Shown here piece by piece: positions 20,646 through 46,121 of a stretch of 64,000 nucleotides of DNA. Every line of letters starts with the position of its first letter. Within the stretch, counting starts at the first letter, position 1. The stretch is from contig NZ_JAMTCG010000006.1 in NCBI RefSeq assembly GCF_024171725.1, positions 310,001 to 374,000 on the forward strand, written 5' to 3'. Source of the DNA: Williamsia serinedens (GTDB lineage: Bacteria > Actinomycetota > Actinomycetes > Mycobacteriales > Mycobacteriaceae). The translations under genes and the position numbers were made by a program. Under the pieces are notes generated by a model. That model worked only from the letters and a program-made list of their open reading frames with translations. It was not told the origin of the DNA and searched no databases.

Positions 20646-20671
20646 CTACCCACTGCGACGGCGTCCTAATC
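20646..20671 (-). promoter_or_regulatory. Weak SigF-like promoter of the GAF-ANTAR gene
   Basis: On the minus strand GATT, 16 nt, GGGTAG, ending about 40 nt before the start at 20604. One mismatch to GTTT in the -35 element makes it weaker than the others listed. Confidence 0.35.
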
Positions 20672-20693
20672 CACGTGACGACGGCGGGCGGGC

Positions 20694-22136
20694 TCAGGCA
20701 TGCAGGTAGTCCGAGGGTCGGAGACGGCCCGCCCGACGACGGTAGGACCGCATCGACCACTGCCAGTTGTGCGTGTCGTGTCCGTCGCGGTCGTGGTACC
20801 AGTTCCGACACCCGGCCCAGACCGTGCGGTGCTCCGCTGCGCGGACGTTCCGTCGGAAGCGCTCGTGGACCTCGGGACGCACCTCGAGCGCCGCACCCGA
20901 TCGTCGGATCTCGTCGACCGCGTCGAGGATGTGGGCGGTCTGGGTCTCGAGCATGAAGACGATCGACCCGGCACCGAGATTCGTGTTCGGGCCGTAGACG
21001 AGGAACATGTTGGGGAAGCCCGGCACGGACAGGCCCAGGTGGGCCGACGCCCCGTCGCGCCACGCGTCGGCGAGCGTCGACCCGTCACGGCCGGTGACCG
21101 ACACCCCCGTCAGGAACTCGGTGGTCGCGAAACCCGTTGCGAGGACGACGACGTCGCAGGGATGGACGACACCGCCGACGACGAGCCCGTCGGCCGTGAG
21201 TCCCTCGACCGCGCCGCTCACGACCTCGGCGTGTCGACGTTGCAGCGCGGGGTACCAGTCGCTGGACACCGTGATCCTCTTGCAGCCGATCTCGTGGTCG
21301 GGTGTCAGTCGCGCCCGCAGGACCGGATCGGGCACGGCAGATCGCAACTGGCGCAGGAACAATCGGCGCATCAGGCGCATCGCCTGCGGGAACCGCCAGA
21401 ACGCGAGCGTGAACGCCTCGAACGCCGTCCAGATGCCCACGCGAGCGACCGCTGCGTACCCCGGGATCGCGCGGTGCGGCGACCCGTAGTCGGCGTCGGG
21501 TCGGGCGAGCACGTACGGCGCGCTCCGCTGGACCACCGTCAGATGGGCTGTCTCGTCGACGATCTCCGGGACGACCTGGACCGCGCTCGCGCCGGTCCCG
21601 ACCACGGCGACGTCCCTCCCCCGCAGGTCGACGTCGTGGCGCCAGCGGGCGGTGTGGAACACCGGACCCGGGAACCCCGCCGCCGCGACGGCCTCGGGGG
21701 TCGCCCAGCCCGGGACGGACGGCACCGACAGCTGGCCGACCGCCGGGACGAGGACGTCGGCGACATGGACGGTCCCGTCGTCGAGGTCGAGATGCCAGGC
21801 GCCGTCACGCCACGCCGCGGCGACGACTGTCGTCGACAGCCGGATCCGGTCGCCGATGCCGGCATCGGCGACACACCGACGCAGGTAGGCGTGGATCTCG
21901 GGGCCGGGCGCGAACCGGCGTGACCAGGCGACGGTGCGGGCGAACGAGTAGCTGTAGATGTGTGACGGTGCGTCACACGCCGCGCCCGGGTAGGTGTTGG
22001 CCTGCCACGTGCCGCCGACGTCGTCGGCCTGCTCGAACACGACGAACGACCGGTGTCCACGGGCGGCGAGACGCAGCGCGACGCAGAGTCCACCGAACCC
22101 GGCCCCGATGACCGCGACCCGCGGCTCCGACGACAT
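20694..22136 (-). CDS. Flavin-containing monooxygenase (Baeyer-Villiger type)
   Basis: 480 residues with an FAD Rossmann motif GAGFGG (11-16), a second nucleotide motif (VGTGASAVQVV) for NADPH, and the class B monooxygenase signature FPGPVFHTARW (FxGxxxHxxxW). Such enzymes insert oxygen into ketones or oxidise heteroatoms. The substrate is not readable. A related but distinct enzyme lies at 41518-42966. The start has no clear ribosome binding site, and a promoter places the transcript start close to the ATG. Confidence 0.92.
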   Translation of the reverse strand: MSSEPRVAVIGAGFGGLCVALRLAARGHRSFVVFEQADDVGGTWQANTYPGAACDAPSHIYSYSFARTVAWSRRFAPGPEIHAYLRRCVADAGIGDRIRLSTTVVAAAWRDGAWHLDLDDGTVHVADVLVPAVGQLSVPSVPGWATPEAVAAAGFPGPVFHTARWRHDVDLRGRDVAVVGTGASAVQVVPEIVDETAHLTVVQRSAPYVLARPDADYGSPHRAIPGYAAVARVGIWTAFEAFTLAFWRFPQAMRLMRRLFLRQLRSAVPDPVLRARLTPDHEIGCKRITVSSDWYPALQRRHAEVVSGAVEGLTADGLVVGGVVHPCDVVVLATGFATTEFLTGVSVTGRDGSTLADAWRDGASAHLGLSVPGFPNMFLVYGPNTNLGAGSIVFMLETQTAHILDAVDEIRRSGAALEVRPEVHERFRRNVRAAEHRTVWAGCRNWYHDRDGHDTHNWQWSMRSYRRRAGRLRPSDYLHA

Positions 22137-22141
22137 GGTCG

Positions 22142-22171
22142 ATGATGGACACCCATCTGGACAGGTGTCAA
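22142..22171 (-). promoter_or_regulatory. Promoter with inverted repeat upstream of the flavin monooxygenase
   Basis: On the minus strand -35 TTGACA (22166-22171) and -10 CATCAT (22142-22147) are 18 nt apart, and the ATG at 22136 follows 5 nt later. Arms GACACC (22148-22153) and GGTGTC (22164-22169) form an inverted repeat between and over the boxes, a possible operator. Confidence 0.45.
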
Positions 22172-22187
22172 CGGCGGGCGGCGTGGG

Positions 22188-22415
22188 TCAGCGCGAGGGC
22201 GACAACACCAGCGAGGCGATGACCCGCTCGACGCCCTTCTCCTGGTCGATCTCCCGGGAGTGCGTGATCCGGGACATCGGCGCGGCGATCCTGGCGCCGC
22301 CACCGATCGGCTGGAGTTCGACGAAATCGACCGGGCTGTGTCGCACGGCGACGACGGTGCACACGCACCGCCGCCCGTCGGGCAGAGCCACCGACACGAG
22401 ATTCCCCTTGAGCAT
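22188..22415 (-). CDS. Small conserved-type hypothetical protein (75 residues)
   Basis: I do not recognise this protein. It is a compact 75-residue frame rich in valine and beta-prone stretches (GNLVSVALPDGRRCVCTVVAV), suggesting a small barrel-like fold. GGAG precedes the ATG by 6 nt, and a good SigF-type promoter lies 85 nt upstream, which supports it as a real, stress-related gene. Confidence 0.55.
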   Translation of the reverse strand: MLKGNLVSVALPDGRRCVCTVVAVRHSPVDFVELQPIGGGARIAAPMSRITHSREIDQEKGVERVIASLVLSPSR

Positions 22416-22499
22416 GAACCGCTCCTCACCCGCCTCGCGGCGCGGTCGGGTACCGACAGTGCCGACGCCCGGTGATCTCGTCAGCGTCGTCGCCGTGAC

Positions 22500-22524
22500 A
22501 TACCCGTCCCGTCGGCGACGAAAC
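22500..22524 (-). promoter_or_regulatory. SigF-type promoter (small protein gene)
   Basis: On the minus strand GTTT, 15 nt, GGGTAT. It lies just after the lipoprotein gene and upstream of the 75-residue protein gene. Confidence 0.5.
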
Positions 22525-22539
22525 GTCGCGGACCGGCCA

Positions 22540-23490
22540 CTACTGATAGCTGATGTAGTCCGGCGACGGCGCGAGCGCGAGCACCTGCGCGGGGTTCATC
22601 ACCCCGATGTCCTGGCGGTAGAAGACCTTGAAGCCGGGGTGCATCCGCGGGTCGGCGAGCTCGGCGTACTTGCGGACCTTGGTCCCCGTGGTGCCGAACC
22701 CGTCCGTGTGGGCGATGAGCGCCAGCTCCGGCGGGGTGAGGACGCCGCCGCGGCCGGTGATCATGTCCGGGGTGAACTGGTGCAGCACCAGGGGCTTCTG
22801 CGGCAGGGCGCCGCGACGGGTCAGGTCGGCGAGCCACGTCACGACCCCGTTCACCTCGCCCCCCGACACCGTTCCGATCTGCGTCCCGGGCACGACGCCC
22901 GACGGCATCCGCCACTCGGCGTCGAGGGCCAACCCAACGTCGGGTTGCGTCAGGAACCGCGTCCACCGCTGCACCTGGGGCAGGAACGGGCACTGGCCGG
23001 GCTGCACGTCGAGGACGAGCATCTGCCGGTGCGCACGGGCGGCGGCGAGGTAGCGGTCCACGTCCGCGTCGGCGATCGGGTGCGAGTAGCAGCCGCCGGG
23101 TCCCGGCGTCGGGTCGGCGACGGTCACGATCATCTCCATGACGGGCAGCACCGGCCGGCCGGGCCGCGCGTACGCCGCCGCCTGCTGTTCGAGCCGGACG
23201 GCGGCCTGATCCGGCGTGCCGACACCCAGGGCGCCCAGACCACCACCGTCATCGGTGCCGTACAGCGCGACGAGCCGCTGCCCCGGGAACAGGACGCGTC
23301 CCCCGCGCGGCAGTTCGGGTGGCGTCGGCGCGGCCGCGCTCGATGCGGACTCGACGCGTGGAGACGAGTCCGCGGGAGGCGCCGGCGTCGACGCACCGCA
23401 CGCCGCGGTGCCGAGGAGAAGGGCCGCCGCGGCGGCGGCGACGGCACCACGGATCGCTCGTGTCCCACCCACGGTCGGCGATGGTGCCAC
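22540..23490 (-). CDS. Putative secreted lipoprotein of unknown function
   Basis: 316 residues from a GTG at 23490. An alanine-rich signal region ends in LLLGTAAC, a near-lipobox with threonine at -3, followed by a low-complexity Ser/Pro/Ala linker. The folded part (about 75-316) alternates hydrophobic strands and helices (MLVLDVQPGQC, VGLALDAEWRM, PLVLHQFTPDMI), suggesting a TIM-barrel-like or glycosidase-like fold, but no catalytic motif is certain. It starts 41 nt after the idi stop on the same strand and may be co-transcribed. The open frame runs much further upstream over idi, which is a shadow. Confidence 0.7.
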   Translation of the reverse strand: MAPSPTVGGTRAIRGAVAAAAAALLLGTAACGASTPAPPADSSPRVESASSAAAPTPPELPRGGRVLFPGQRLVALYGTDDGGGLGALGVGTPDQAAVRLEQQAAAYARPGRPVLPVMEMIVTVADPTPGPGGCYSHPIADADVDRYLAAARAHRQMLVLDVQPGQCPFLPQVQRWTRFLTQPDVGLALDAEWRMPSGVVPGTQIGTVSGGEVNGVVTWLADLTRRGALPQKPLVLHQFTPDMITGRGGVLTPPELALIAHTDGFGTTGTKVRKYAELADPRMHPGFKVFYRQDIGVMNPAQVLALAPSPDYISYQ

Positions 23491-23531
23491 GCCGCGGGAC
23501 CGTCCCGGGGTGGTGGGGCGGGTGCGGCGGG

Positions 23532-24083
23532 TCAGACCCCGGCGACGCCCGCCGGGCGGAGGAGGTCGTCCGGCGTCAGCTGCGACACCTGGTCGACGAA
23601 CCACGGGCTGAACGCCCACGGCGTCCGTTCGACGGCCGCCCAGACGTCGACGACCGGCGACCACGTGTGTTCGGCCACCTCGTCCGCGGCGGGACGCACC
23701 TCGCCGACCGGACGCGCCGTGAAGACGGGGCAGATCTCGTTCTCGACCACGCCGCTGGCGTCGACGGCGCGGTAGCGGAAGCCGGGCAGGACGCAGCGCA
23801 GGTCGGCGACCCCGAACCCGAGCTCTCGCGGGGCGTAGCGATGGATCGCGTCCGGGACCGCCTCCTCGGGTCGCGGATGCCCACAGAAGGAGTTGGTCCA
23901 CACGCCGGGCCATGTCCGCTTGCTCAGTGCGCGGCGGGTCATCAGGATCCGGCCGGCGTCGTCCACCACGTGGCAGGAGAAGGCGAGGTGCAGGGGCGTG
24001 TCCGCGGTGTGGACCGTCGTGCGGTCGGCGACGCCCGTCGGTGCGCCCGATTCGTCGGTGAGGACCACCAGATCTGCGTTCAT
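23532..24083 (-). CDS. idi: Isopentenyl-diphosphate delta-isomerase, type 1
   Basis: 183 residues of the Nudix fold. The enzyme interconverts isopentenyl and dimethylallyl diphosphate for isoprenoid synthesis. The active-site cysteine lies in NSFCGHP (C67) and the acidic catalytic segment in VENEICPVF. The ATG at 24083 follows GGGAG by 2-3 nt; an upstream ATG at 24155 lacks one. It probably forms an operon with the lipoprotein gene downstream. Confidence 0.94.
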   Translation of the reverse strand: MNADLVVLTDESGAPTGVADRTTVHTADTPLHLAFSCHVVDDAGRILMTRRALSKRTWPGVWTNSFCGHPRPEEAVPDAIHRYAPRELGFGVADLRCVLPGFRYRAVDASGVVENEICPVFTARPVGEVRPAADEVAEHTWSPVVDVWAAVERTPWAFSPWFVDQVSQLTPDDLLRPAGVAGV

Positions 24084-24265
24084 GTCTCCCGACCGGTGTC
24101 GTGCGTGATGTTTCTGGACTGATCGTACAGAGACTGCGCGGGACGCACCGTGCACGCGTGCGACGTCCGCGACCGAACCGAGACCTCCCCGGTGCTGTCG
24201 TCACCGTTCGGCCGCACCTTCGCGCCCGGGCCGTCCGCGCCTCGTCAGGCCCCCCGGGTCGCTCG

Positions 24266-24271
24266 TAGCGT
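24266..24271 (+). promoter_or_regulatory. -10 box TAGCGT of a leaderless transcript
   Basis: TAGCGT lies 7 nt before the GTG at 24279, the same box and nearly the same spacing as at 3633. No ribosome binding site is present. Confidence 0.45.
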
Positions 24272-24278
24272 GGCGATC

Positions 24279-24515
24279 GTGACCGAGCCCGAGAATGTCC
24301 CCGACCTCGAACCCGGCGGCGGTGTCGCACCCGGATCGACCCCTCCCGCAGCGGAATCCACGACCTGGGTCCGCGACGACGCGGACCCGGACGTGACACG
24401 ACGGTTCCCCCCGGGCGGCCGCACCGGCAAGATCCTCGCGGCCGCCCTGGTGCTGGTGCTGCTCGCGTTTCTCGTCGCCGCGGCGATCGGGGTGGGATTC
24501 AACTACGCGACCTGA
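24279..24515 (+). CDS. DUF6480-like small membrane protein
   Basis: 78 residues from the GTG at 24279. The N-terminal signature TEPENVPDLEPGGGVAPG is followed by a charged stretch and one C-terminal membrane helix (ILAAALVLVLLAFLVAAAIG). It is a paralogue of the protein at 25757-25981, which shares the signature. Function unknown. The two flank a membrane GGDEF gene. Confidence 0.75.
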   Translation: MTEPENVPDLEPGGGVAPGSTPPAAESTTWVRDDADPDVTRRFPPGGRTGKILAAALVLVLLAFLVAAAIGVGFNYAT

Positions 24516-24689
24516 CAGCACCGTCCCGGACGAACCGGTCATCCGACCGATTGACCGCGGCGCCCCCGCGTGACCTTTGTTACCGTTAACAGGTTCGCGA
24601 TCGCGGATTGTGATCAAGCATGCGCAGCACCGCAGGTGCGCGCTCGTCCGGGGGAGATGCCAGCGTCTGGGTGGGGAGTGATCCGGCGG

Positions 24690-25709: not shown

Positions 25710-25719
25710 CCCGGTCCGC

Positions 25720-25746
25720 GGTTTCCGCCCCGGTGCGGGCGGGTAA
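25720..25746 (+). promoter_or_regulatory. SigF-type promoter (second DUF6480 gene)
   Basis: GGTTT (25720-25724), 16 nt, GGGTAA (25741-25746), with the ATG 10 nt further on at 25757. Confidence 0.65.
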
Positions 25747-25756
25747 CCGCCTGCGC

Positions 25757-25981
25757 ATGACCGAACCCGAACAGACACCCGATCTCGAGGTTGGCGGCGG
25801 CGTCACCCCCGGCGACACACCGCCCGCAGAGGCCACCACCTCGGGACTGTCCGAGCCCGAACCCGATGCACGTCACCGCTTCTCGACGACCGGCGTCGCC
25901 ACCATCGTCGCCGTGGCCCTGCTCGTCATCGTCTTCGGTGCGGCCGTCGTCGCGATCATCTACGAGATCGCGGGCGGCTGA
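25757..25981 (+). CDS. DUF6480-like small membrane protein
   Basis: 74 residues: signature TEPEQTPDLEVGGGVTPGDT, then a single C-terminal membrane helix (IVAVALLVIVFGAAVVAIIY). Paralogue of the protein at 24279-24515. A well-formed SigF-type promoter lies 10 nt before the start, so expression under general stress is likely. It ends 7 nt before the convergent RsbW-like gene. Function unknown. Confidence 0.78.
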   Translation: MTEPEQTPDLEVGGGVTPGDTPPAEATTSGLSEPEPDARHRFSTTGVATIVAVALLVIVFGAAVVAIIYEIAGG

Positions 25982-25988: not shown

Positions 25989-26387
25989 TCACGCCGGTTC
26001 GCGCAGCTTGCTGAACGACACCACGACGTCGCGGCCGTCGGGACGATCCGCACTCGTGACGTCGACGTGGTCGACGGACGCGTTCACCAGCTGCCACCCG
26101 ACACCCACCCCGAGTCGACGACGGCCCGTCTGGACCACGCCGCGGATCTCGCCGTCCGCGGCGTGCGGTCCGGTCACCACCGAACACGTCAGGGGGTGAC
26201 GGTGGTCGGACCGCTCGACGATCTGCTCGCAGATCTCCGTCACCGCCAGCACCAGGTCCGACGTGGTCTCGACGCTGAAGTCGACGCGCAACAGCAGCGT
26301 CTCGAGCATCGCCCGGATGAGTCCGACCCGGTGCGGCGCGACCGTCACCGTCACCATCGCCGACGACCGCGTCCAGTCGTCGTCCAC
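25989..26387 (-). CDS. RsbW-like ATP-binding (anti-sigma type) protein, degenerate
   Basis: 132 residues with the size and order of a serine-kinase anti-sigma factor (GHKL fold). An N-box-like helix (DLVLAVTEICEQIVERS) and a glycine box (GVGVGWQLVNASVDHVDV) are visible. The metal-binding Asn of the N-box and the DxGxG aspartate are not evident, so ATP binding or kinase activity may be lost. GTG at 26387 follows GGGAGGAG by 5 nt. A SigF-type promoter drives it, and the sigma-factor gene lies 1.7 kb away rather than next to it. It could be an anti-sigma factor or an anti-anti-sigma kinase relic. Confidence 0.7.
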   Translation of the reverse strand: MDDDWTRSSAMVTVTVAPHRVGLIRAMLETLLLRVDFSVETTSDLVLAVTEICEQIVERSDHRHPLTCSVVTGPHAADGEIRGVVQTGRRRLGVGVGWQLVNASVDHVDVTSADRPDGRDVVVSFSKLREPA

Positions 26388-26457: not shown

Positions 26458-26483
26458 ATACCCGACCCCCGCCGGGGCGAAAC
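26458..26483 (-). promoter_or_regulatory. SigF-type promoter (RsbW-like gene)
   Basis: On the minus strand GTTT, 16 nt, GGGTAT, about 70 nt before the GTG at 26387. It is divergent from the similar promoter at 26499-26526; the two -35 elements are only 15 nt apart. Confidence 0.65.
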
Positions 26484-26498: not shown

Positions 26499-26526
26499 GT
26501 GTTTGTCACCCCTGAATGGGGGGTAA
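26499..26526 (+). promoter_or_regulatory. SigF-type promoter (FAD-Rieske oxidoreductase gene)
   Basis: GTGTTT (26499-26504), 16 nt, GGGTAA (26521-26526), 33 nt before the ATG at 26560. Confidence 0.7.
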
Positions 26527-26559
26527 CCCAACGGCGCCCGTGACGACGTGAGGGAGACG

Positions 26560-28089
26560 ATGACTTCGCTGTGGCTCGAGAACCGTTCCCGCCCTGCCAC
26601 TCCTGTGCAGGTCGCCGATCTGGACGGGTCCCGCTTCGACCATGTCGTGGTCGGGGCCGGGATCACCGGCATGGTGACGGCCGTCCTGCTGGCCCGCGCC
26701 GGCGCGAGCGTCGCGGTGCTCGAGGCGCGCCACCTCGGGGCGGTGACCACCGGGCACACCACCGGCAAGGTCAGCCTGCTGCAGGGCACGCGCCTCTCGA
26801 CCATCGCCCGTCGCCACGACCGCGACGTCGTCGCGGCCTACGTCGACGCCAACCGTGAGGGCATGGAGTGGCTGCTGCGGTTCTGCGCCGACCGCGACCT
26901 CTCCGTCGACCGCGAGACCGCCCTGACCTATGCCACGGACGAGGACTCCGCCGACACCATCGTCGCCGAGCATCGCGCCGCCCGGGCCGCCGGGCTCGCC
27001 ACCGAGATCGTCGCCGACACCGACCTCCCGTTCGACGTCGCCGCGGCCGTCGCGTTGCCGGACCAGGCCCAGTTCGACCCGATGCCGGTGCTCGATGCCC
27101 TCGCCGACGACCTCCGTGAGCACGGCGGAGTGCTGATGGAGGGGGTTCGCGTGCGAGGGACCGGGTCGCCGCTGCCCGGCCTGCCCGGCGTGCTCCCCCG
27201 CGGCGACGTCACGATCCGCACCGATCACGGCCGGGTGCGCGCCGCGACGATGACACTGGCCACCGGCATGCCGACACTCGACCGCGGCGCCCACTTCGCC
27301 CGCCTCACCGCACAGCGGTCCTACGGCGCGGTCTTCTCCCTCGACGAGGAGCGCATCCCCCGCTCGATGTCCCTGGCCGCGGGATCTCCGTCGGTGTCAC
27401 TGCGGTATGCGTGGCGCCCGTCGCCGCACGGCTCGGAGCGGGTGCTCCTCGTCGGCGGGTTCGGACACGAGACGGGTCGGGCGTCGTCGGAGCGATCGCA
27501 CACCGACGAGCTGATCCGCTGGACCCGGGCCACCTTCCCCGGCGCCGAGATGCAGAACCTCTGGTCGGCCCAGGACTACTCGTCGGTCGACGAGCTGCCC
27601 GTCGTCGGACCGGTCGTCCCCGGCGACGACCGCATCCTGGTCGCGACCGGGTTCGCCAAGTGGGGCATGACGAACGGGGTGGCCGCGGCGCTGGCGTGCA
27701 GCGGTCGGATCCTCGGGGGCAACCACCCATGGGCGCGGGTGTACCGCGCGTGGCGGCCGTCGCAAGTGACCTCGGTCGCCTCGGCGGCACAGATGAACGC
27801 ACAGGTCGCCCGACACATGGTCACGGGCTGGGCGACCGCGGTCACCCGCAGCGCCGACCGGACCCCGTCGGCCGACGGTGACGCCACGGTCGGGCGCTCC
27901 GGCGTGCGTCCCGTGGGTCGGTGCCGCGTCGACGGCGCCGAGAAGAGCGTCACGCCGGTCTGCACGCACCTCGGCGGGATCCTGCACTGGAACGACAGTG
28001 AGCAGTCCTGGGACTGCCCGTTGCACGGTTCGCGCTTCGCCCCCGACGGCGAGGTGCTCGAGGGACCGGCCACGCGCCACCTGCCGTGA
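26560..28089 (+). CDS. FAD-dependent oxidoreductase with C-terminal Rieske domain
   Basis: 509 residues. A DAO-type FAD domain with the Rossmann motif GAGITG (32-37) spans about 1-390. A Rieske [2Fe-2S] domain covers the last 80 residues with C468-T-H and C486-P-L-H489 as ligands. The same architecture is known in YhfW-like proteins of stress-induced gene sets; electron donor and substrate are unknown. ATG 26560 follows AGGGAG by 3 nt. A SigF-type promoter upstream places it in the general-stress set. It is convergent with the sigma-factor gene. Confidence 0.92.
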   Translation: MTSLWLENRSRPATPVQVADLDGSRFDHVVVGAGITGMVTAVLLARAGASVAVLEARHLGAVTTGHTTGKVSLLQGTRLSTIARRHDRDVVAAYVDANREGMEWLLRFCADRDLSVDRETALTYATDEDSADTIVAEHRAARAAGLATEIVADTDLPFDVAAAVALPDQAQFDPMPVLDALADDLREHGGVLMEGVRVRGTGSPLPGLPGVLPRGDVTIRTDHGRVRAATMTLATGMPTLDRGAHFARLTAQRSYGAVFSLDEERIPRSMSLAAGSPSVSLRYAWRPSPHGSERVLLVGGFGHETGRASSERSHTDELIRWTRATFPGAEMQNLWSAQDYSSVDELPVVGPVVPGDDRILVATGFAKWGMTNGVAAALACSGRILGGNHPWARVYRAWRPSQVTSVASAAQMNAQVARHMVTGWATAVTRSADRTPSADGDATVGRSGVRPVGRCRVDGAEKSVTPVCTHLGGILHWNDSEQSWDCPLHGSRFAPDGEVLEGPATRHLP

Positions 28090-28110: not shown

Positions 28111-28956
28111 TCAGGCCGCCCCGGCCGTCCAGTCCTCGTCGACGGACCGGTCGCGGACGCCCGCCCGCAGCCGGTCGAGTGTGGCCGACAGGATCCGCGA
28201 TACGTGCATCTGCGAGATCCCGATCTCGCGGGCGATCTGCGACTGCGACATCGAGTCGAAGTACCGCAGCACCAGGATGCGGCGCTCGCGGGGCGGCAGG
28301 GCGTCGATGGCCGGACGCACCGACACCAGCTCGTCTATCTGTCCGATCCGCTCGTCGCGGCTCCCGAGGGTCTCCCGGATGCTGGGGGTCGCCGAGTCAC
28401 CGCCGAACTCCGCGTCGATCGAGGTCGTGTGGTACGACGCGCCGGCAACGAGCCCGTCGATGACGTCGTCGATGGCGAGGCCGGTCTCGGCCGCGATCTC
28501 CGACGGCTTCGGTGACCGACCGAGGCGCTGCGACAACGCGTCCGAGACGCGCGTGATCTGGAGGTAGTTCTCCTTGGTGCGGCGCGGGACCCGCATGCAC
28601 CACGCCGCATCCCGGAAGTACCGGCGCACCTCGCCCATCACCGTGGGCACGGCGAACGACAGGAAGTCACTGCCCCGTTCGGGGTCGTACCGGTCGATGG
28701 CGTTCACCAGGCCCACGCGAGCGACCTGGACCAGGTCGTCGTAGGGCTCGCCCCGCCCGCCGAACCGGCGGGCGACGTGATCCGCCAGAGGGAGGCACCG
28801 CGCGATGACACTGTCGCGCAGGCGTTCTCGATCTCGACCGCGTGCGGCAGCCACCTGCGAGAGAACGTCCGGCACATCGGAGTAGTCGTCGTCGTGACTG
28901 CGCGAACGCGCGGAGGTCGGTGCGACGGAGCGATCGGGAGAATCGTTGGAAATCAT
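28111..28956 (-). CDS. sigF: RNA polymerase sigma factor, SigB/SigF/SigG subfamily
   Basis: 281 residues of an alternative sigma-70 factor. Region 2 (EPYDDLVQVARVGLVNAIDRYDPERGSDF, with core-binding and -10 recognition), region 3 (about 130-190) and region 4 (LPPRERRILVLRYFDSMSQSQIAREIGISQMHVSRIL, -35 recognition) are all present. The subfamily directs general stress responses and recognises GTTT / GGGTA promoters, several of which occur within 20 kb. GGGTGA precedes the ATG by 4 nt. An rsbW gene is usually immediately upstream in mycobacteria; here an RsbW-like gene is nearby but unlinked. The symbol is by subfamily, not proven orthology. Confidence 0.9.
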   Translation of the reverse strand: MISNDSPDRSVAPTSARSRSHDDDYSDVPDVLSQVAAARGRDRERLRDSVIARCLPLADHVARRFGGRGEPYDDLVQVARVGLVNAIDRYDPERGSDFLSFAVPTVMGEVRRYFRDAAWCMRVPRRTKENYLQITRVSDALSQRLGRSPKPSEIAAETGLAIDDVIDGLVAGASYHTTSIDAEFGGDSATPSIRETLGSRDERIGQIDELVSVRPAIDALPPRERRILVLRYFDSMSQSQIAREIGISQMHVSRILSATLDRLRAGVRDRSVDEDWTAGAA

Positions 28957-29344: not shown

Positions 29345-30193
29345 TCAGCCGGGCAGGGTCTCGCCGCCGATCGGCGCGAGCACCTCGCCGGAGTAGTACG
29401 AGGACATCGTCCGCGCGGCGAAGAAGACGAACGACGGCGCGATCTCGTCGGCATGCGCCGCTCGCCCGTACGGGACCTGGGCGCCGAACTCCGTGACCTG
29501 CTCCGCGGGCATGGTCGCCGGGATGAGAGGTGTCCAGACAGGGCCGGGCGCAACGCAGTTGACGCGGATGTCCCGCTCGAGCAGCGACTGCGCGAGCGAG
29601 TAGGTCAGGGCCGTCACCGCACCCTTCGCGGCCGAGTAGTCGATGAGCGTCTTGTTGCCCCGCAGCCCGTTGATCGACCCGGTGTTGATGATCGCGCCAC
29701 CGCCCGTCAGATGCTCCACCGCCGCGCGGGTGACGTGGAAGAAGCTGTGGATGTTCACGTCGAACGTGCGATACCACTGCTCGGGGGTGAGCTCGAGGAA
29801 GTCGTCGACCGGGTTCTGGAACGCCACGTTGTTGACCAGGATGTCGAGGCCGCCGAGGGTGTCGACCGTCTGGGTGACGAGGTCCCGGCAATGCTGCGGA
29901 TCAGCGAGGTCACCCTCGATCGCATGCGCCTGCCGGCCCTGCGCGGTGATGAGATCACAGGTACGAGAGGCGTCTGCGGGCTCGGCGAGGTGGGCGATGA
30001 CGACGTCTGCCCCCTCCTTGGCGAACGCGACCGCCACTGCCCGGCCGATACCGGAATCACCACCGGTCACCAGAGCCCGCTTGCCCGCGAGCAATCCGCG
30101 TCCCTCGTAGTCGCGCATCTCGTCACGGGGCTTCTCCGACATGTCCTCGGTGTGACCGGGGTAGTCGATGGTCTCCTCGGGGTGCTCGCTCAT
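29345..30193 (-). CDS. Short-chain dehydrogenase/reductase (YghA / general stress protein 39 type)
   Basis: 282 residues. An N-terminal extension of about 35 residues (rich in Glu/Pro, as in the stress-related SDRs) precedes the NAD(P) motif TGGDSGIG. NNVAFQ, a catalytic serine in NTGSINGLRG and the YSAAK dyad are intact. It probably reduces a small aldehyde or ketone; the substrate is unknown. A weak SigF-like motif on the minus strand (GTTT, 15 nt, GGGGCA at 30205-30229) ends 11 nt before the ATG, the spacing seen at the better sites. Confidence 0.92.
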   Translation of the reverse strand: MSEHPEETIDYPGHTEDMSEKPRDEMRDYEGRGLLAGKRALVTGGDSGIGRAVAVAFAKEGADVVIAHLAEPADASRTCDLITAQGRQAHAIEGDLADPQHCRDLVTQTVDTLGGLDILVNNVAFQNPVDDFLELTPEQWYRTFDVNIHSFFHVTRAAVEHLTGGGAIINTGSINGLRGNKTLIDYSAAKGAVTALTYSLAQSLLERDIRVNCVAPGPVWTPLIPATMPAEQVTEFGAQVPYGRAAHADEIAPSFVFFAARTMSSYYSGEVLAPIGGETLPG

Positions 30194-30374
30194 ACCGGCA
30201 CGGCTGCCCCGTCGGGCCGTCGTCGAAACCTGCTGCGCCGACGGGTGTCAACCGTGACCAGGTTTCGTACACGACCGTGCGGGAAGCCTGCCGGGTGTCC
30301 GCGGCCGAGGCCGACGCTGCGGCGGTCAGCGGTGTCGGATGACACCGAACCACCGTTCCTGCTGGAGGACGATC

Positions 30375-30875
30375 GTGACCACACATCCGGGCGCAGCCCA
30401 TCCGGGTGCCGGCGTGACCCCCGACCTGCGCCGGTCTCCCCTCCGACTCGCCTCCGCGGCGGTCGGTGCCGTTTTCCTGGTGGTCGGGATCCTCGGCTTC
30501 ATCCCCGGGATCACGACGGACTACGACATGCTCAGCTTCGCGGGGCACCACTCCGGTGCGAAGTTGTTGGGCGTCTTCGCCGTGTCCGTCCTGCACAACA
30601 TCGTGCACCTGCTGTTCGGCGTCGCCGGGCTGGCGCTGTCGCGCACCGCGGCCACGTCGCGTGCGTTCCTCGTCGGCGGCGGCGTCATCTACGCCGTCCT
30701 GTGGATCTACGGGCTGGTGGTCGACGAGACGAGCTCGGCGAACTTCGTGCCGCTCAACACCGCCGACAACTGGCTGCACTTCGCATTGGCCGTCGGGATG
30801 ATCGCGCTGGGACTGCTCCTCCCCGCCGCCCTCACCCCGGGCACCCGGACCGTGGACCGTCGCACGACCCGCTGA
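30375..30875 (+). CDS. DUF4383 family membrane protein
   Basis: 166 residues with four membrane helices (ASAAVGAVFLVVGILGF; a second in the stretch ending VLHNIVHLLFGVAGLAL; then GGVIYAVLWIYGLVV and FALAVGMIALGLLLPAAL) and the family motif HNIVHLLFG. Function unknown; the family often sits with stress genes in actinobacteria. GTG 30375 follows GGAGG by 6 nt. A possible SigF-type promoter (GGTTT 30261, 15 nt, GGGAAG 30281) lies upstream. The catalase frame begins 58 nt downstream and may be co-transcribed. Confidence 0.85.
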   Translation: MTTHPGAAHPGAGVTPDLRRSPLRLASAAVGAVFLVVGILGFIPGITTDYDMLSFAGHHSGAKLLGVFAVSVLHNIVHLLFGVAGLALSRTAATSRAFLVGGGVIYAVLWIYGLVVDETSSANFVPLNTADNWLHFALAVGMIALGLLLPAALTPGTRTVDRRTTR

Positions 30876-30933: not shown

Positions 30934-31839
30934 ATGTTCACCCACACCGACCACCTGTAGTTCGACGTCGCCCCCGAGAAGCCGGACCCCGTCTACGCGC
31001 GGAAGCTCCAGGAACTGCTCGGCGGCACCTACGGCGAGATGACCGTGACGATGCAGTACCTCATGCAGGGCTGGAACTGTCGCATGAAGGGCAAAAACAA
31101 GGACCTCATCATGGACGTGGCCACCGAGGAGATCGGCCACGTCGAGATGATCGCCACCATGATCGCGCGACTGCTGGAGGGCGCGCCCGCCACCGAGTCG
31201 ACCATGAACGCGGCCGCGGACCCCGTCGTCGCCGCCGTGCTCGGCGGGATGGATCCGCAGCAGGCGATCGTCAACGGCGGTGGGGCCATGCTGGCGAACA
31301 GCAACGGTGTCCCGTGGCAGGGCAGCTTCGTGGTTGCGAGTGGGAACCTGTTGACGGACTTCCGATCCAACGTGTCGGCGGAGTCGCAGGGCCGCATGCA
31401 GACCGCCCGGCTCTATCACATGACCGATGACCCCGGCGTCAAGGACATGTTGAAGTTCAACCTCGCCCGCGACACGTACCACCAGAACATGTGGCTCGCG
31501 GCCATCGAGGAACTCCGCGCCGACGGGTACGAGGACGTCGTCGCACCCAACGCCCTGCTCGACGAGGAGCACGCCGAACACGCCACCTCCCTGTGGCACC
31601 TGTCCGACGGTGCCGACGCCGACAAGGGTCGATGGGCCCGCGGGACGGCACCGGACGGTCGGCACGAACTGGGCTTCCTCGCCGACCCGCGCCCGCTGGG
31701 GAACAAGCAGGCGGGTCCGCCGCCGGACCCGAAGCTCTACGCCACCTACGACGGTGCGATGGGCGAGCCACAGTCGGCGCAGCTCGGCACCGAGAAGGGC
31801 GTGATGGGCAAGCTGAAGGACGCGGTCGACCCGACCTGA
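30934..31839 (+). pseudogene. Manganese catalase with in-frame amber codon at codon 9
   Basis: From the ATG at 30934, preceded by AGGGA, the translation matches manganese catalases (MFTHTDHL, stop, FDVAPEKPDPVYARKLQELL). Codon 9, normally Gln, is TAG (30958-30960) instead of CAG; the frame is otherwise intact to the end (301 codons). Metal ligands in the family numbering are present: E35, E66 and H69 (ATEEIGH). The next ATG (31039) would start translation at residue 36, just after ligand E35, so a restarted protein would lack one of the two-manganese ligands. Either the gene is inactivated, the TAG is suppressed, or it is a sequencing error. The frame would encode a non-haem, hydrogen-peroxide-dismutating enzyme. 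Confidence 0.85.
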
Positions 31840-31900: not shown

Positions 31901-32179
31901 TCAGCGGGGCAGCGCGCCGAATGCGACCGTGAGCAAAACGATCGCCAGCAGCAGCAGCCCGGCGATCACGAGCACCCCACCGTGGTCGCCCAGGAGCAGG
32001 CGTTCGGGGTCGAACGCCTCGACGAGGTCGGTGTCGGTCGCGGGCGTGGTCGTACCGGTCGGCGCCGCAGCGGGGATCGCTGCCGCCGTCGGCGCGGGCG
32101 CGGGGGCGGCCATCGCGGCGTCGAGGGTGGTCATGCCCTCGTCTCCGGGATCCGGCGGCGAATCGGTGAGCGGGTGCAT
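31901..32179 (-). CDS. Small single-pass membrane protein
   Basis: 92 residues: an acidic N-terminus, a Pro/Ala/Thr low-complexity stretch, and one C-terminal membrane helix (GVLVIAGLLLLAIVLLTVAF). No family recognised. GGAGGGA precedes the ATG by 6 nt. A SigF-like motif (32251-32276) lies upstream, so it may belong to the same stress set as the DUF6480 proteins, which have a similar layout. Confidence 0.65.
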   Translation of the reverse strand: MHPLTDSPPDPGDEGMTTLDAAMAAPAPAPTAAAIPAAAPTGTTTPATDTDLVEAFDPERLLLGDHGGVLVIAGLLLLAIVLLTVAFGALPR

Positions 32180-32250: not shown

Positions 32251-32276
32251 ATACCCGATGGTTTCGCGAACGAATC
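32251..32276 (-). promoter_or_regulatory. SigF-like promoter (small membrane protein gene)
   Basis: On the minus strand GATT, 16 nt, GGGTAT, about 70 nt before the start at 32179. The -35 element has one mismatch. Confidence 0.45.
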
Positions 32277-40751: not shown

Positions 40752-40779
40752 GTGTTTCACCCGTTGCGGCACCGGGTAT
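40752..40779 (+). promoter_or_regulatory. SigF-type promoter (third GAF-ANTAR gene)
   Basis: GTGTTT (40752-40757), 16 nt, GGGTAT (40774-40779). It decides the start of the next gene: the ATG at 40778 lies inside the -10 box, so the GTG at 40790, 10 nt beyond it, must be used. Confidence 0.65.
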
Positions 40780-40789
40780 GCCAGGGCGC

Positions 40790-41533
40790 GTGGACATCCA
40801 TCGGCGTATGGCCGAGCTCGCGCGAGAACTGCACGCGGTGCCCGAGTCCGCGCCGGACGCGCTGGAGACGGTGCTCGTCGCGGTGACCGCCGGCGCCCTC
40901 GACAACGTGGCCGGCACCGACCACGCCGGGGTGCTCCTCGTCGACGCCACGCGGCGCACGCTGACCACGGTCGCCCCCACCGACGACATCATGGTCACCC
41001 TGGACCGTCTCCAACAGGAGACCGGCGAGGGACCATGTCTGGCCGCGGCGTCCGAGACCACCGCCTCCGACGACACCGTGGTCTGGGTCGACGACATCGC
41101 GAACGACCCGCGGTGGCCCCGCCTCTCGCGGCGGATCGTCGACGAGACGCCGGCCCGGTCGAGCATGTCCTTCCGGCTCTTCACCCACCAGGGCACGCTG
41201 GGTGCCCTGAACCTGTTCTCCGACACCGCGAACGCCTTCGACGAGGACAGCCGGGAGATCGGCCGGGTGTTCGCGACGCACGCCGCGCTGGCGATGTTCC
41301 GCACCCGTCAGCAGGGCGAGTTCCGCAGCGCTCTCGCCAGCCGCGACACCATCGGTCAGGCGAAGGGGATGATCATGGAGCGCTTCGGTGTCGACGCCAT
41401 GCAGGCATTCGCCCTGCTGCGCAAGCTGTCCCAGGACGGCAACGCACCGCTGGCCGAGGTCGCGCGACGGCTCGTCGACGCGGGCTCGGAGTCAGCCGGG
41501 GACCAGCGGCCCGGGGGTCACGCGACCCGGTGA
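40790..41533 (+). CDS. GAF-ANTAR domain regulator
   Basis: 247 residues: GAF domain (about 15-170, with GEGPCLAAASETTASD) and ANTAR domain (about 182-240, SRDTIGQAKGMIMERFGVDAMQAF). Expected to bind RNA hairpins and antiterminate when the GAF domain is signalled. A SigF-type promoter directly upstream links it to the stress response. The last 16 nt overlap the convergent monooxygenase gene. Third such protein in the window. Confidence 0.92.
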   Translation: MDIHRRMAELARELHAVPESAPDALETVLVAVTAGALDNVAGTDHAGVLLVDATRRTLTTVAPTDDIMVTLDRLQQETGEGPCLAAASETTASDDTVVWVDDIANDPRWPRLSRRIVDETPARSSMSFRLFTHQGTLGALNLFSDTANAFDEDSREIGRVFATHAALAMFRTRQQGEFRSALASRDTIGQAKGMIMERFGVDAMQAFALLRKLSQDGNAPLAEVARRLVDAGSESAGDQRPGGHATR

Positions 41534-42966: not shown

Positions 42967-43053
42967 CGACCTCTCCCGGTTCGCCCGCCCCGAGGGCAGG
43001 GTATCTGACACGCCCGCGTTCCCGACGCGCATCCCGTGACGTCCCCCGGGCGG

Positions 43054-43059
43054 TAGCAT
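43054..43059 (+). promoter_or_regulatory. -10 box TAGCAT of a leaderless transcript
   Basis: TAGCAT lies 8 nt before the GTG at 43068 with no ribosome binding site between, so the TetR mRNA is probably leaderless. Confidence 0.45.
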
Positions 43060-43067
43060 CGGCGCCC

Positions 43068-43724
43068 GTGGGTGACGCGCCGACAGCTGTGGACCGACGT
43101 ACCGGTGGCCGCCGGTACGGGGGCCGGTCGACCGCTGCGCGCGTCGCCGAGCGCCGGGCCGCGTTGCTCGAGGCAGGCCTCGACCTCTTCGGCACCGAGG
43201 GCTATCAGCGGGTGTCGGTGAAGCAGGTCTGCGATCGCGCCGGACTCACGCAGCGCTACTTCTACGAGTCGTTCGACGAGCGCGAGGCGTTGCTGCTCGC
43301 CGTCTACGACGAGATCGTCGACGACGTGGGCCGTCGCACCGTCGACGCGATCGACAAGACGCTGCCGACGATCGCCGAGCTGGCGCACGTCGCGCTGGCC
43401 GAGTTCATCGGGTACCTCACCGCGGACCGTCGTCGTGCACGCGTGATGCTGCTCGAGGTCGTCGGCGTGAGCCCCGCACTGGATGCGCGCCGACGACGCG
43501 TCATCGGGGACTTCGCCGAGATCATCGTCACCGCGGGGATGGCGCACGCGGGGCTGTCGGAGACCACCGACGAGTTCCGGCTCAGCGCGATCGGGCTCGT
43601 CGGGGCGGTGAACCAGCTCCTCGTCGACTGGGTGCTGGGTGAGGCCACGGCGGACCCGGCCGCCATCGAGCACGTCTGCACGCGACTGTTCTCCGCGGCG
43701 TTCGCCGAGCTGTTGCCGCGCTGA
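43068..43724 (+). CDS. TetR family transcriptional regulator
   Basis: 218 residues with the helix-turn-helix at about 35-80 (VSVKQVCDRAGLTQRYFYESFDEREALL) after an arginine-rich tail, and a helical ligand domain. Divergent from the flavin monooxygenase gene, its likely target. Confidence 0.9.
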   Translation: MGDAPTAVDRRTGGRRYGGRSTAARVAERRAALLEAGLDLFGTEGYQRVSVKQVCDRAGLTQRYFYESFDEREALLLAVYDEIVDDVGRRTVDAIDKTLPTIAELAHVALAEFIGYLTADRRRARVMLLEVVGVSPALDARRRRVIGDFAEIIVTAGMAHAGLSETTDEFRLSAIGLVGAVNQLLVDWVLGEATADPAAIEHVCTRLFSAAFAELLPR

Positions 43725-43738
43725 CCGCCGTCGCGATC

Positions 43739-43978
43739 TCAGAGGTCGTCGAGCTGCACCAGGCCGTCCTGCAGCGCCCGGGCGAGCAGCTGCGCCTTGG
43801 TCCGCGCCGGGCGCCCCACGTCGGCGTACTTGCTCCGGATCCGGGCGATGTGGGTCATGACCGTCGCCGGCGCGATGGTGAGTGCGGAGCCCACCTCGTC
43901 CTTGCTCTCCGACTGGATCCACAGGCGGAGGACCTCCGCCTCGCGCGGACTCAACACAGGCCGCGGCATGTCCCTCAT
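43739..43978 (-). CDS. LuxR-type helix-turn-helix solo protein
   Basis: 79 residues, almost entirely a GerE/LuxR DNA-binding domain (LSPREAEVLRLWIQSESKDE, then a variant of the usual IA..L.ItpaTVktHv helix: LTIAPATVMTHIARIRSKYA). There is no receiver or sensor domain. ATG 43978 follows GGGGGG by 4 nt; the frame is open further but with cysteine-rich non-family sequence. The upstream region holds a 12-bp palindrome and a cluster of TGCA boxes. Confidence 0.82.
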   Translation of the reverse strand: MRDMPRPVLSPREAEVLRLWIQSESKDEVGSALTIAPATVMTHIARIRSKYADVGRPARTKAQLLARALQDGLVQLDDL

Positions 43979-43994
43979 GACGCCCCCCTCACGA

Positions 43995-44101
43995 CGAGAA
44001 TTCTCGGTTCCCGGTGTCGAAAATACACGCCGTCGGAGACACGTTTCCGCAGGCAGACGGCCTGATTGCGTGCAACTGCACGGTTTGCAGAAAAATTGCA
44101 C
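43995..44101 (-). promoter_or_regulatory. Upstream region of the LuxR-type gene with palindromes and TGCA boxes
   Basis: CGAGAATTCTCG (43995-44006) is a perfect palindrome next to a -10-like box (minus strand TGTATT, 44022-44027). Further up, GTGCAACTGCAC (44070-44081) and TTGCAC (44096-44101), with TTTGCAG between, give repeated TGCA cores and GTGCAA / TTGCAC arms 20 nt apart. Candidate binding sites of the LuxR-type protein itself. Confidence 0.4.
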
Positions 44102-44147
44102 CCACGCCCTACAGTGCACCCCGCGGGGGTGTGCAGATCGCGTCAGG

Positions 44148-45089
44148 TCAGAACCGACTGCCGGTGAACGGGGCGGCTCGCTCGCACACCGCGGGACGCG
44201 GGTGGACCGGGTCGAGGGCGTTCAGGACGAAGGTCGCGGCCCGGCGCGAACCCGCCAGTCCCGCATGCTCCGTCAGGTCCTGCGGACACCCGTCCTGGAC
44301 GACGATGTTCGTCACGTTCGCCCCGCCGGGCACCAGACCGGAGGTGTACGGGACGACGGCCTCGTCGTGGATCGTCGCGATGTTGGTGTAGGTGATGCCG
44401 GGGTCGTACAGGCCACCGGCGTGCAGGCCCCGGATGGTCGGCGAGTTCGGGTCGAACTCGCCGCACGCCGCGCAGACGGGCAGCGGCCCGGTCAGGAGTC
44501 CGCGCTGCCGCGCGAGGTCGAGCATCGACCCCGCACCCGCGGGCGACGTCCCGTCCCACAGGGCGGCCAGGGACACGTACCTGCCGATCTTCCCGGCGCC
44601 GGCCCCGCTCTTCACCCACAGCGCGGGGATGAGCGTGCCCTGGGAGTGGCCGACGACGTCGACGCGTGCGGCACCGGTCGCCGCGAGCACACGTTCGGCG
44701 AACAGCCCGAACTGTCGGGCGCTCTCGCGCATCGGGCCCATCCCGCCGATCGCAGTGATCGGCCAGGGACCCGGCAGCGCGCCGTAGGTCAGCGCGAAGA
44801 CGCAGTATCCGGCGTTCTTCAGCAGCGGGACGTAGGTGCCCCAGTTGGTCTGCCGCGACCCGCCGGTGCCGTGCACCAGGATCACGGGGTCCGGGTGCTC
44901 GGGGCTCGGGCGGCAGGCGAAGTCGTTCGAGCCCGGCAGTGATCCGCCGGGATGGGCTAGCTCGGGACCCACGCCCGAGAAGAAGTCGTAGGCGACCGGC
45001 AGCGGGGCCGCCTGTGCGCCGACGGTGGGGCCGGCGACGACGGCGACCGCCACCGTCACCGCGAGCACGACTCGGCGGAGGATGACCAT
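44148..45089 (-). CDS. Secreted esterase/lipase
   Basis: 313 residues: signal peptide (VVLAVTVAVAVVAGPTVGA, cleavage after AQA), alpha/beta hydrolase fold with oxyanion stretch VILVHGTGG and nucleophile motif GHSQGT. Cysteines in CAACGEF and VQDGCP suggest disulfides outside the cell. Related to the lipase at 32555-33688. A -10 box TAGGTT lies 6 nt before the ATG, so the mRNA is probably leaderless. Confidence 0.88.
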   Translation of the reverse strand: MVILRRVVLAVTVAVAVVAGPTVGAQAAPLPVAYDFFSGVGPELAHPGGSLPGSNDFACRPSPEHPDPVILVHGTGGSRQTNWGTYVPLLKNAGYCVFALTYGALPGPWPITAIGGMGPMRESARQFGLFAERVLAATGAARVDVVGHSQGTLIPALWVKSGAGAGKIGRYVSLAALWDGTSPAGAGSMLDLARQRGLLTGPLPVCAACGEFDPNSPTIRGLHAGGLYDPGITYTNIATIHDEAVVPYTSGLVPGGANVTNIVVQDGCPQDLTEHAGLAGSRRAATFVLNALDPVHPRPAVCERAAPFTGSRF

Positions 45090-45095
45090 CGACCG

Positions 45096-45101
45096 AACCT
45101 A
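45096..45101 (-). promoter_or_regulatory. -10 box TAGGTT of a leaderless transcript
   Basis: On the minus strand TAGGTT lies 6 nt before the ATG of the lipase gene at 45089. Confidence 0.45.
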
Positions 45102-45138
45102 GCAAGTGCTTGGTCGGCGTACCCGGCGTTCGGTGGGC

Positions 45139-45798
45139 TCAGCCGGCGGCGTCGGCGGGATCGCCGAACCGCAGGTCGACCGGACGGTCGGGGCCGTCCC
45201 AGAGGTGCAGACGCTCGTACTCCGCGGCGATGGTGTCCGGGTCGTAGGCGGTGCCGGGTGCCACGGGTCCACACACCGTGACCGTGGAGGACCGGACGGC
45301 CGGGCCGAACTCGGTGTCGAGGAGTCTGGCGAGTGCACGCAGCGCGGCCTTGCCCAGCGACAGACTGGTCAGCTGCGGCAGCGGCTCGGGCATCCCGGCC
45401 GTCAGCAGGTAGCTGCCGCCGTCGGCCGCGGCCATGCGGGGCAGCAGCGACGACGCGGTGGTGACCGCCCCGCCGACGTTCACGGCGAGGGTGTCGCGCA
45501 GCGAGTCGGCGTCGAGATCGGCCACGGTGTCCTGACGGATCACGCCCGCGTTGTAGACGACCAGCTCGGGCACGCCGAGCCGGTCGACGAGATCGTCCAG
45601 CGCGCCGCGCAGTGCGCTCTCGTCGGCGACGTCGGCCGTCACACCCGCCGCGGACGTCGGCAGCCCCTCGAGCAGGGTGTCGATCGTCGACGACGACCGC
45701 GCGAGGACACCGACGCGGTGACCCCGGTCGGCGAACCGTCGCGCCACCGACCGTCCGATACCGGGGCCTGCGCCGACGACGAACACCGCTGCGGGCAT
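45139..45798 (-). CDS. Short-chain dehydrogenase/reductase with altered active site
   Basis: 219 residues from the ATG at 45798, which follows AGGAG by 6 nt. The Rossmann motif GAGPGIG and YNAG are present, but in the YxxxK dyad the tyrosine is leucine (LSLGK). Catalysis of the usual SDR kind is therefore doubtful. Substrate unknown. Confidence 0.82.
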   Translation of the reverse strand: MPAAVFVVGAGPGIGRSVARRFADRGHRVGVLARSSSTIDTLLEGLPTSAAGVTADVADESALRGALDDLVDRLGVPELVVYNAGVIRQDTVADLDADSLRDTLAVNVGGAVTTASSLLPRMAAADGGSYLLTAGMPEPLPQLTSLSLGKAALRALARLLDTEFGPAVRSSTVTVCGPVAPGTAYDPDTIAAEYERLHLWDGPDRPVDLRFGDPADAAG

Positions 45799-45863
45799 GG
45801 AGATCTCCTGACGTCGCGCCGACGCCACCACGCTACCGACGGCGCAGGAGACCTCCCGATCGC

Positions 45864-46085
45864 TCAGCCGCGGGCGTCGACGGCTGCTTGCACCGCGTGC
45901 TCGTCGGCACCGCCGGGGACCTCGATGGCCCGTTCGCCGTCCAGCGACCCGTTCACCCAGCCGTCGCCATCGGATTCACGCCAGTCCATGAGCTTGCCGT
46001 CGGCGTCGAAGGCGAGCGCCGCGCGGTCCGGGTACTGCTCGGTGATCTGCGCGATGCGCTGCGCCAGCGTGCTCTCGACGGCCAT
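45864..46085 (-). CDS. Hypothetical protein (73 residues)
   Basis: Not recognised. A soluble acidic protein of 73 residues with an opening helix (ESTLAQRIAQITEQYPDRAA) and a WRESDGDGWVNGSLDGE segment. A SigF-type promoter ends 10 nt before its ATG, which supports it as a real gene. Confidence 0.65.
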   Translation of the reverse strand: MAVESTLAQRIAQITEQYPDRAALAFDADGKLMDWRESDGDGWVNGSLDGERAIEVPGGADEHAVQAAVDARG

Positions 46086-46095
46086 GGCCGACGGG

Positions 46096-46121
46096 GTACC
46101 CCCGTACCCCGCAGTCGAAAC
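46096..46121 (-). promoter_or_regulatory. SigF-type promoter (73-residue protein gene)
   Basis: On the minus strand GTTT (46118-46121), 16 nt, GGGTAC (46096-46101), with the ATG 10 nt further on. A second GGGTAC at 46104-46109 is too close to the -35 element to serve. Confidence 0.6.

Follow-up and report, generated by a model that had tools for sequence, protein, structure and literature searches.

The sigma factor gene and the boxes around it

We analysed a 64-kb stretch of the Williamsia serinedens genome, here called the window, in which copies of a promoter-like motif, GTTT-N15/16-GGGTA, surround a gene for a SigB/SigF/SigG-type sigma factor of 281 amino acids (aa), which we refer to as sigF (28111-28956, minus strand). 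The product of sigF contains Pfam sigma regions 2, 3 and 4 and passes the TIGR02980 model with 276.7 bits (cut-off 234.35), which bears out the initial annotation in placing such a gene in the middle of the region. No other SigB/F/G-type gene was found in the genome, where the next matches are 30% and 26% identical. The closest named relative of its product, from an uncultured Williamsia, is 92% identical over residues 1-281, and the gene neighbourhood of sigF is largely colinear there.

A search of the window for GTTTN{13,18}GGGTA returned seven matches, far more than in shuffled sequence (mean 0.17 and largest count 2 in 100 shuffles). Six of them are the sites that had been proposed, all present and at most two bases from where they had been put; the spacer is N16 in five and N15 in one. 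The N15 site (22501-22524, minus strand) precedes a gene for a 75-aa protein without Pfam or NCBIfam match (22188-22415, minus). The second site (25721-25745, plus) precedes a gene for a 74-aa DUF6480 protein (25757-25981, plus; PF20088, 8.8e-16) with a C-terminal stretch that appears hydrophobic by eye. Two further sites, at 26459-26483 (minus) and 26501-26525 (plus), precede the genes for an RsbW-like protein of 132 aa (25989-26387, minus) and for an FAD-dependent oxidoreductase with a C-terminal Rieske domain (26560-28089, plus; Pfam DAO 9e-35 and Rieske 1.3e-5 in a search run on 26548-28089). The remaining two lie before the genes for a GAF-ANTAR protein, a predicted RNA-binding antiterminator (site 40754-40778, plus; gene 40790-41533, plus; PF03861, 1e-19), and for a 73-aa protein, again without Pfam or NCBIfam match (site 46097-46121, minus; gene 45864-46085, minus). 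The starts given by the gene caller for the FAD-Rieske and DUF6480 genes were misplaced and were corrected by eye, the former to the ATG at 26560 after GAGGGAG. The distance from GGGTA to the start codon is the same in three of the six cases, as had been observed: 11 nucleotides (nt), or 10 if the box is taken as GGGTAN, before the ATG of the DUF6480 gene, the GTG of the GAF-ANTAR gene and the ATG of the 73-aa gene.

Matches of this kind might arise by chance in a genome of 70% GC, with the associated genes picked by eye. On the whole genome (4.64 Mb in 33 contigs) the pattern read backwards gives 7 matches against 20 exact ones, and 5 of these 20 fall inside called genes. The distribution of the sites argues the other way. 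With the start of DUF6480 corrected, all seven matches in the window are intergenic, while called coding sequence takes up 88% of it. Six of the 20 genomic sites are packed into 23.6 kb around the sole SigF-type gene, an arrangement that none of 20,000 uniform placements reproduced. Shuffling, permuted and random motifs, clustering and orthology (below) all speak against chance, which we regard as practically excluded as an explanation of the boxes. It is refuted for the six exact sites, is still possible for a weaker site at 20647-20671 and is likely for one at 42979-43003. The latter, GTTC-N16-GGGTA before a TetR gene, was rejected as a candidate, as it was not seen in two relatives (G001 and G007). 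The seventh match (57476-57502, plus) was likewise rejected as a SigF promoter: its spacer is N18, and it lies with a repeated GCGTAC-N-CCGTAC element between divergent TetR and MFS genes, so that the region at 57476-57580 (plus) is probably a TetR operator instead. Similar GTTT-N18-GGGTA sites are listed for G001 and G007. An Rfam scan of the window gave no match at the gathering threshold.

The initial annotation had spoken of a local regulon. The sites are indeed dense near sigF, yet the set is not purely local: beyond the window the genome has 13 further exact sites, 5 of them inside called genes and 8 ahead of an open reading frame (ORF) on the same strand. These eight precede an SDR gene, a 61-aa ORF and a short DUF6480-like ORF (10 nt in each case), a zinc alcohol dehydrogenase gene (20 nt), a 95-aa ORF (28 nt), a 53-aa ORF (34 nt), an amine-oxidase-like gene (57 nt) and a methyltransferase gene (61 nt). 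Because exact sites precede ORFs elsewhere in the genome, the region appears to be the part of a wider regulon in which members are most concentrated.

Conservation of the boxes and co-occurrence with sigF

We compared the window with G001 and G007, two genomes of the same genus whose SigF proteins are 80% and 92% identical to that of the window, using orthologue pairs with at least 55% identity and an alignment from the N-terminus. An exact box precedes the window gene in 10 of 82 such pairs, and the relative keeps the box in all 10; in the same test the best of 79 permuted motifs reached 3 pairs and the best of 1000 random motifs 2. The boxes of the rsbW-like, FAD-Rieske, GAF-ANTAR and 73-aa genes are exact in both relatives, and those of the DUF6480 and 75-aa genes are exact in G001. 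A third genome of the genus, G002, has an exact box before the FAD-Rieske gene and one with a single mismatch (GGATA) before rsbW. Over 16 orthologous site pairs, with weaker sites and G002 included, identity is 64/64 at the -35 box and 78/80 at the -10 box, compared with 64/160 at the spacer ends, 75/192 in the 12 nt upstream and 57/128 in the 8 nt downstream. Several spacers have shifted between N15 and N16 with both boxes retained. Since the site pairs were found through their boxes, the 82-pair test is the fairer of the two.

The 73-aa protein allows this comparison to be extended beyond the genus. Of 151 genomes of the family, 17 contain relatives of it, and the box scan took in the 20 of 21 protein matches that had a locus. 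In another genus, 8 of 9 genomes, all with sigF, have a box that differs at one -35 position and lies 10-11 nt ahead of the ATG. Altogether, a near-start box was seen in 11 of 14 rows from genomes with sigF (exact in 3, one -35 mismatch in 8), against none of 6 rows from genomes without sigF, 5 of which have a Shine-Dalgarno-like string by eye.

The genus offers a natural comparison, as four of the eight genomes examined for it lack sigF (E <= 1e-40). Box counts against the backward control are 20/7, 25/5, 20/14 and 18/6 in the four genomes with sigF (83 vs 32 in total) and 14/20, 18/13, 17/23 and 26/21 in the four without, which together show no excess (75 vs 77). The same holds in the sample of 151 family genomes, 108 of which have a sigF match at E <= 1e-50: totals are 4612 vs 2227 in these and 763 vs 767 in the other 43. 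Matches exceed the control in 103 of the 108 and in 28 of the 43 (Mann-Whitney test on log ratios, p = 3.6e-7, uncorrected for relatedness). Boxes followed after 9-12 nt by an ATG or GTG, counting any such codon and not verified starts, number 1093 against 241 in the control for the 108 genomes and 140 against 103 for the 43. In addition, among 80 sigF-like loci of up to 21 kb from named genomes, 17 carry at least two exact boxes and 3 carry one; the 17 come from Gordonia, Rhodococcus spelaei, Saccharothrix, Umezawaea, Williamsia and one Pseudonocardia.

Because the boxes cluster, are conserved between orthologues and are in excess where sigF is present, we consider a SigF-type regulon, as originally proposed, to be strongly supported on the combined basis of sequence, correlation and precedent. 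The boxes are very probably the -35 and -10 elements of promoters read by the SigF encoded at 28111-28956. A different reader could also be envisaged: the boxes would be real, but would serve another sigma factor or a regulatory protein that co-occurs with SigF. When the small-genome genera g3 and g5 are set aside, 31 genomes without sigF retain a slight excess of 358 vs 281, which would fit such a factor, and these genomes may instead hold more distant SigF-like sigma factors below our threshold. However, no second SigB/F/G-type sigma factor was found in the genome, both the excess and the near-start placement follow sigF across the 151 genomes, and the consensus equals the one published for SigF (PMC4694148, PMC7693655). 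We therefore give another factor little credence and retain SigF as the reader of the boxes.

A number of observations nevertheless weigh against this assignment. The sigF product falls 23 bits short of the SigF subfamily model NF005514 (349 vs 372 bits), which is nevertheless the top model among the 82 that match it. The 388-bp gap ahead of sigF contains no box with one mismatch or fewer, and rsbW is not directly upstream of sigF as it is in the Mycobacterium operon. In the genus, the sigF-less genomes G004 and G006 are above their controls (18 vs 13 and 26 vs 21) and the sigF-bearing G002 is only modestly so (20 vs 14); in the family, 28 of the 43 sigF-less genomes exceed the control, and the 31 mentioned above, besides their slight overall excess, have 60 near-start boxes against 30. 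Of the 80 sigF-like loci, 60 have no exact box, mostly those of more distant sigma factors. The identity filter removed from the 82-pair test a DUF6480 pair of G007 (39% identity) that has no box, and the 16 site pairs were located by their boxes, so that box identity is there in part by construction. A near-start box is absent from 3 of the 14 sigF-bearing 73-aa rows (G120, G002 and a second copy in the window genome); one sigF-less row has a one-mismatch box farther upstream and another has no clear Shine-Dalgarno sequence by eye, and the compared 73-aa relatives, at 37-55% identity, may be paralogues. The 75-aa gene has no match in the G007 stretch, and its three relatives in the sigF-less G023 lack a box and were counted on this side as well; weak 75-aa matches in G019 and G082 lay outside the box scan of these relatives. 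Rows whose match started beyond residue 40 or spanned less than half of the query were excluded from that scan. The GAF-ANTAR box was not seen beyond the genus: a Gordonia namibiensis relative has only GTCT-N14-GGGTA, at 88 nt upstream. No box precedes a second GAF-ANTAR gene of G007. Finally, the variant box of the membrane-protein gene described below was not found in G007.

Proposed control of SigF and the mycobacterial precedent

The RsbW-like protein is a candidate anti-sigma factor. Its HATPase_c_2 match (6.1e-6) scores just under the Pfam cut-off (26.7 vs 27.4 bits), and a search of the PDB with it gave a best match, to the RsbW of 6m36, at only E 0.05. It is 23-31% identical to counterparts whose genes lie close to sigF in three Gordonia loci and Rhodococcus spelaei, and 33% identical to an RsbW-like protein of G002. 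The gene shares the strand of sigF and begins 1.7 kb past its 3' end; the convergent FAD-Rieske gene separates the two. Elsewhere in the genome there are 10 other HATPase_c_2 matches (8 above the cut-off), none near sigF, and 2 STAS matches, at most candidate parts of a partner-switching control.

In Mycobacterium smegmatis three RsbW proteins have differing roles and one of them is SigF-dependent (PMC7693655), so both an anti-sigma role and a booster role are conceivable for the protein in the window. A booster like RsbW3, MSMEG_1787 in M. smegmatis, would fit a gene that stands apart from sigF and, like rsbW3, has a SigF box of its own (PMC7693655). Against this, the RsbW-like gene is the nearest of its kind to sigF, no other HATPase_c_2 match in the genome being near, and its product aligns (27% identity) with the RsbW whose gene overlaps sigF in a single operon in R. 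spelaei. We regard the booster role as a serious alternative, though the less probable one, and prefer the anti-sigma role.

Taken together, these features outline how the system might work. RNA polymerase carrying SigF would start transcription about 6-8 nt past GGGTA. The RsbW-like protein, itself encoded behind a SigF box, would hold SigF inactive in unstressed cells and so close a feedback loop. Because no box of its own was found upstream of sigF, autoregulation would need read-through from the promoter of the SDR gene, the codirectional upstream neighbour of sigF across the 388-bp gap; such read-through may boost sigF. The products, namely the FAD-Rieske and SDR oxidoreductases, the DUF4383 protein with its manganese-catalase neighbour, the small proteins and the GAF-ANTAR protein, would take part in a general stress or stationary-phase response. 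The initial annotation had gone further in defining the small proteins as stress proteins; their dependence on SigF is predicted from sequence, and a role in stress would follow only by extension.

The closest precedent is again that of M. smegmatis, where genes downregulated in a sigF mutant are preceded by such boxes (microarray data, boxes assigned by eye; PMC4694148). The consensus of that regulon, GTTT-N14-19-GGGTA, equals that of the window (PMC4694148, PMC7693655), and GGGCA and GGGAA variants also occur before SigF-dependent genes there (PMC4694148, Table 1). Members likewise cluster near sigF, at MSMEG_1758-1804, and are of similar kinds, including RsbW, Mn-catalase, dehydrogenases, FAD and iron-sulfur oxidoreductases and hypothetical proteins; in contrast to the window, rsbW and sigF form a single operon and the regulon is larger (PMC4694148, PMC7693655). 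The GAF-ANTAR, 73-aa and 75-aa genes of the window would be additional members. We consider it strongly supported that the window carries the known mycobacterial SigF stress system, as judged by its sequence, in another genus. A literature search found no work on SigF in Williamsia, and a search for Gordonia was likewise empty, so that a well-studied mycobacterial stress regulon is here extended to Williamsia. New are the predicted members (73-aa, 75-aa, DUF6480 and GAF-ANTAR), by which SigF control is predicted for several unnamed small proteins and an ANTAR regulator; to these come the comparison with relatives that lack sigF and the spacing between box and start codon. The general stress regulon of Bacillus subtilis SigB belongs to a related sigma family, with partner-switching control and a similar consensus, but its host is of low GC and sigB lies within the rsb operon, unlike the situation in the window.

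Boxed rsbW genes near sigF also occur elsewhere: the box is exact in four Gordonia loci and R. spelaei, and deviates at one position in G. namibiensis, one Saccharothrix and Umezawaea. A boxed SDR gene is common to the window and two Gordonia, and a boxed DUF4383 gene to the window and Saccharothrix/Umezawaea. Gene order differs, in that the R. spelaei rsbW overlaps sigF behind a SigF box whereas the rsbW of the window is downstream of sigF. In Gordonia soli, unlike in the window, a STAS-like gene (by eye) lies between rsbW and sigF, and sigF is itself preceded by an exact box.

Start-codon spacing and the predicted member genes

The short distance between box and start codon seen in the window recurs across the family. 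Near-start boxes make up about 36% of the excess of exact boxes (852/2385). We surveyed GTTT-N15/16-GGGTA-N2-30-ATG in 19 genomes, mostly chosen for a high box excess. In the six genomes whose matches were listed in full (148 matches, some boxes being counted with two ATGs), the gap is 9-12 nt in 82, with a peak at 10 nt (37), and only 16 matches fall at 5-8 nt and 8 at 13-16 nt. A Shine-Dalgarno-like string between box and ATG was present in 0 of 85 matches at a gap of 8-12 nt and in 7 of 33 at a gap of 18 nt or more, where the stretch examined is longer. This reveals that SigF -10 boxes have a family-wide preferred distance to the start codon, and Table 1 of the M. smegmatis study lists 16 SigF-dependent genes (by-eye count) with a box 8-11 nt from the start (PMC4694148).

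Where the boxes lie 9-12 nt before the start, and with initiation expected 6-8 nt past the box, the messages would be leaderless or nearly so: the leader would be no longer than about 5 nt, and translation would be expected to proceed without a Shine-Dalgarno sequence. Leaders of this length have been counted as leaderless, and 24% of all M. smegmatis transcripts are reported to be of this class (PMC6448022); the near-leaderless share of about 36% is thus higher but not exceptional. In Streptomyces coelicolor, the message of sspA is SigF-dependent and leaderless (PMC4282423). In the accessible parts of the literature searched, leaderless messages were nowhere seen described as a general property of SigF promoters. 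It is tempting, if rather doubtful, to suppose that SigF promoters of the family are built for leaderless or nearly leaderless stress messages, that SigF thereby selects the mode of translation, and that the GAF-ANTAR protein carries the response to antitermination at the RNA level. As part of the same proposal, sigF-less species would retain 73-aa homologues with a Shine-Dalgarno leader instead.

Four weaker sites had been proposed in addition to the six exact ones. All were located, and three are kept in a relative. The first, GTTT-N16-GGGCA (30205-30229, minus), lies 11 nt before the ATG of the SDR oxidoreductase gene (29345-30193, minus; PF13561, 6.6e-54; NF005214, 370 bits against a cut-off of 413), and its GGGCA is the same in all three genomes, the window, G001 and G007. 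The same gene is preceded by GTTT-N16-GGGTA in G. soli and by GTTT-N16-GGGCA in G. namibiensis. The second, GTTT-N15-GGGAA (30262-30285, plus; GTTT-N16-GGGAA in G001), sits 89 nt before the start of a DUF4383 membrane-protein gene (30375-30875, plus; PF14325, 9.6e-49). An exact GTTT-N16-GGGTA precedes DUF4383 in 9 of 9 Saccharothrix/Umezawaea loci with a DUF4383 match, 39-45 nt ahead of the extrapolated start; a literature search on DUF4383 was of no help, turning up, in the parts accessible, only a study of the Mycobacterium avium DosR regulon. The third, GATT-N16-GGGTA (32252-32276, minus), is a probable promoter 72 nt upstream of a gene for a 92-aa protein, probably a membrane protein by eye (31901-32179, minus; no Pfam or NCBIfam match), and the same boxes, GATT included, are found in two genomes, the window and G001. 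The fourth, GATT-N16-GGGTA at 20647-20671 (minus), 42 nt upstream of a second GAF-ANTAR gene (19804-20604, minus; PF03861, 2.4e-20), is a possible promoter; no orthologue of this gene was seen in the stretches of G001, G007 and G002.

Among the small-protein genes, that of the 75-aa protein, whose relatives occur in 5 of the 151 family genomes, has its ATG 85 nt from the box with a Shine-Dalgarno sequence in the window, compared with 10 nt in G001. DUF6480-like genes at 24150-24515 and 25757-25981 flank a GGDEF gene, and an exact SigF box is found only at the second; G001 has one DUF6480 gene against these two, either of which may be its orthologue. A third, on contig C11, is the short DUF6480-like ORF mentioned above, whose ATG follows its box after 10 nt. 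The window holds three GAF-ANTAR genes (1-684, 19804-20604 and 40790-41533), at least one of them with a conserved SigF box; a search pairing ANTAR with SigF found nothing related in the accessible literature.

The reading frame of the Mn-catalase gene behind DUF4383 (30934-31839, plus), which begins with an ATG at 30934, is interrupted by an in-frame stop at 30958-30960 and stays open only from 31039 onwards; no stop is present in this region in the counterparts from G001 and G002. The gene is damaged or is translated from a downstream start, or the stop is an assembly error. Lastly, GTTT-N15-GGGAA at 5868-5891 (plus) lies 11 nt before a gene for a BrkB-family membrane protein (5903-6925), which has no orthologue in the stretches of the relatives compared and is a further possible near-leaderless SigF target.

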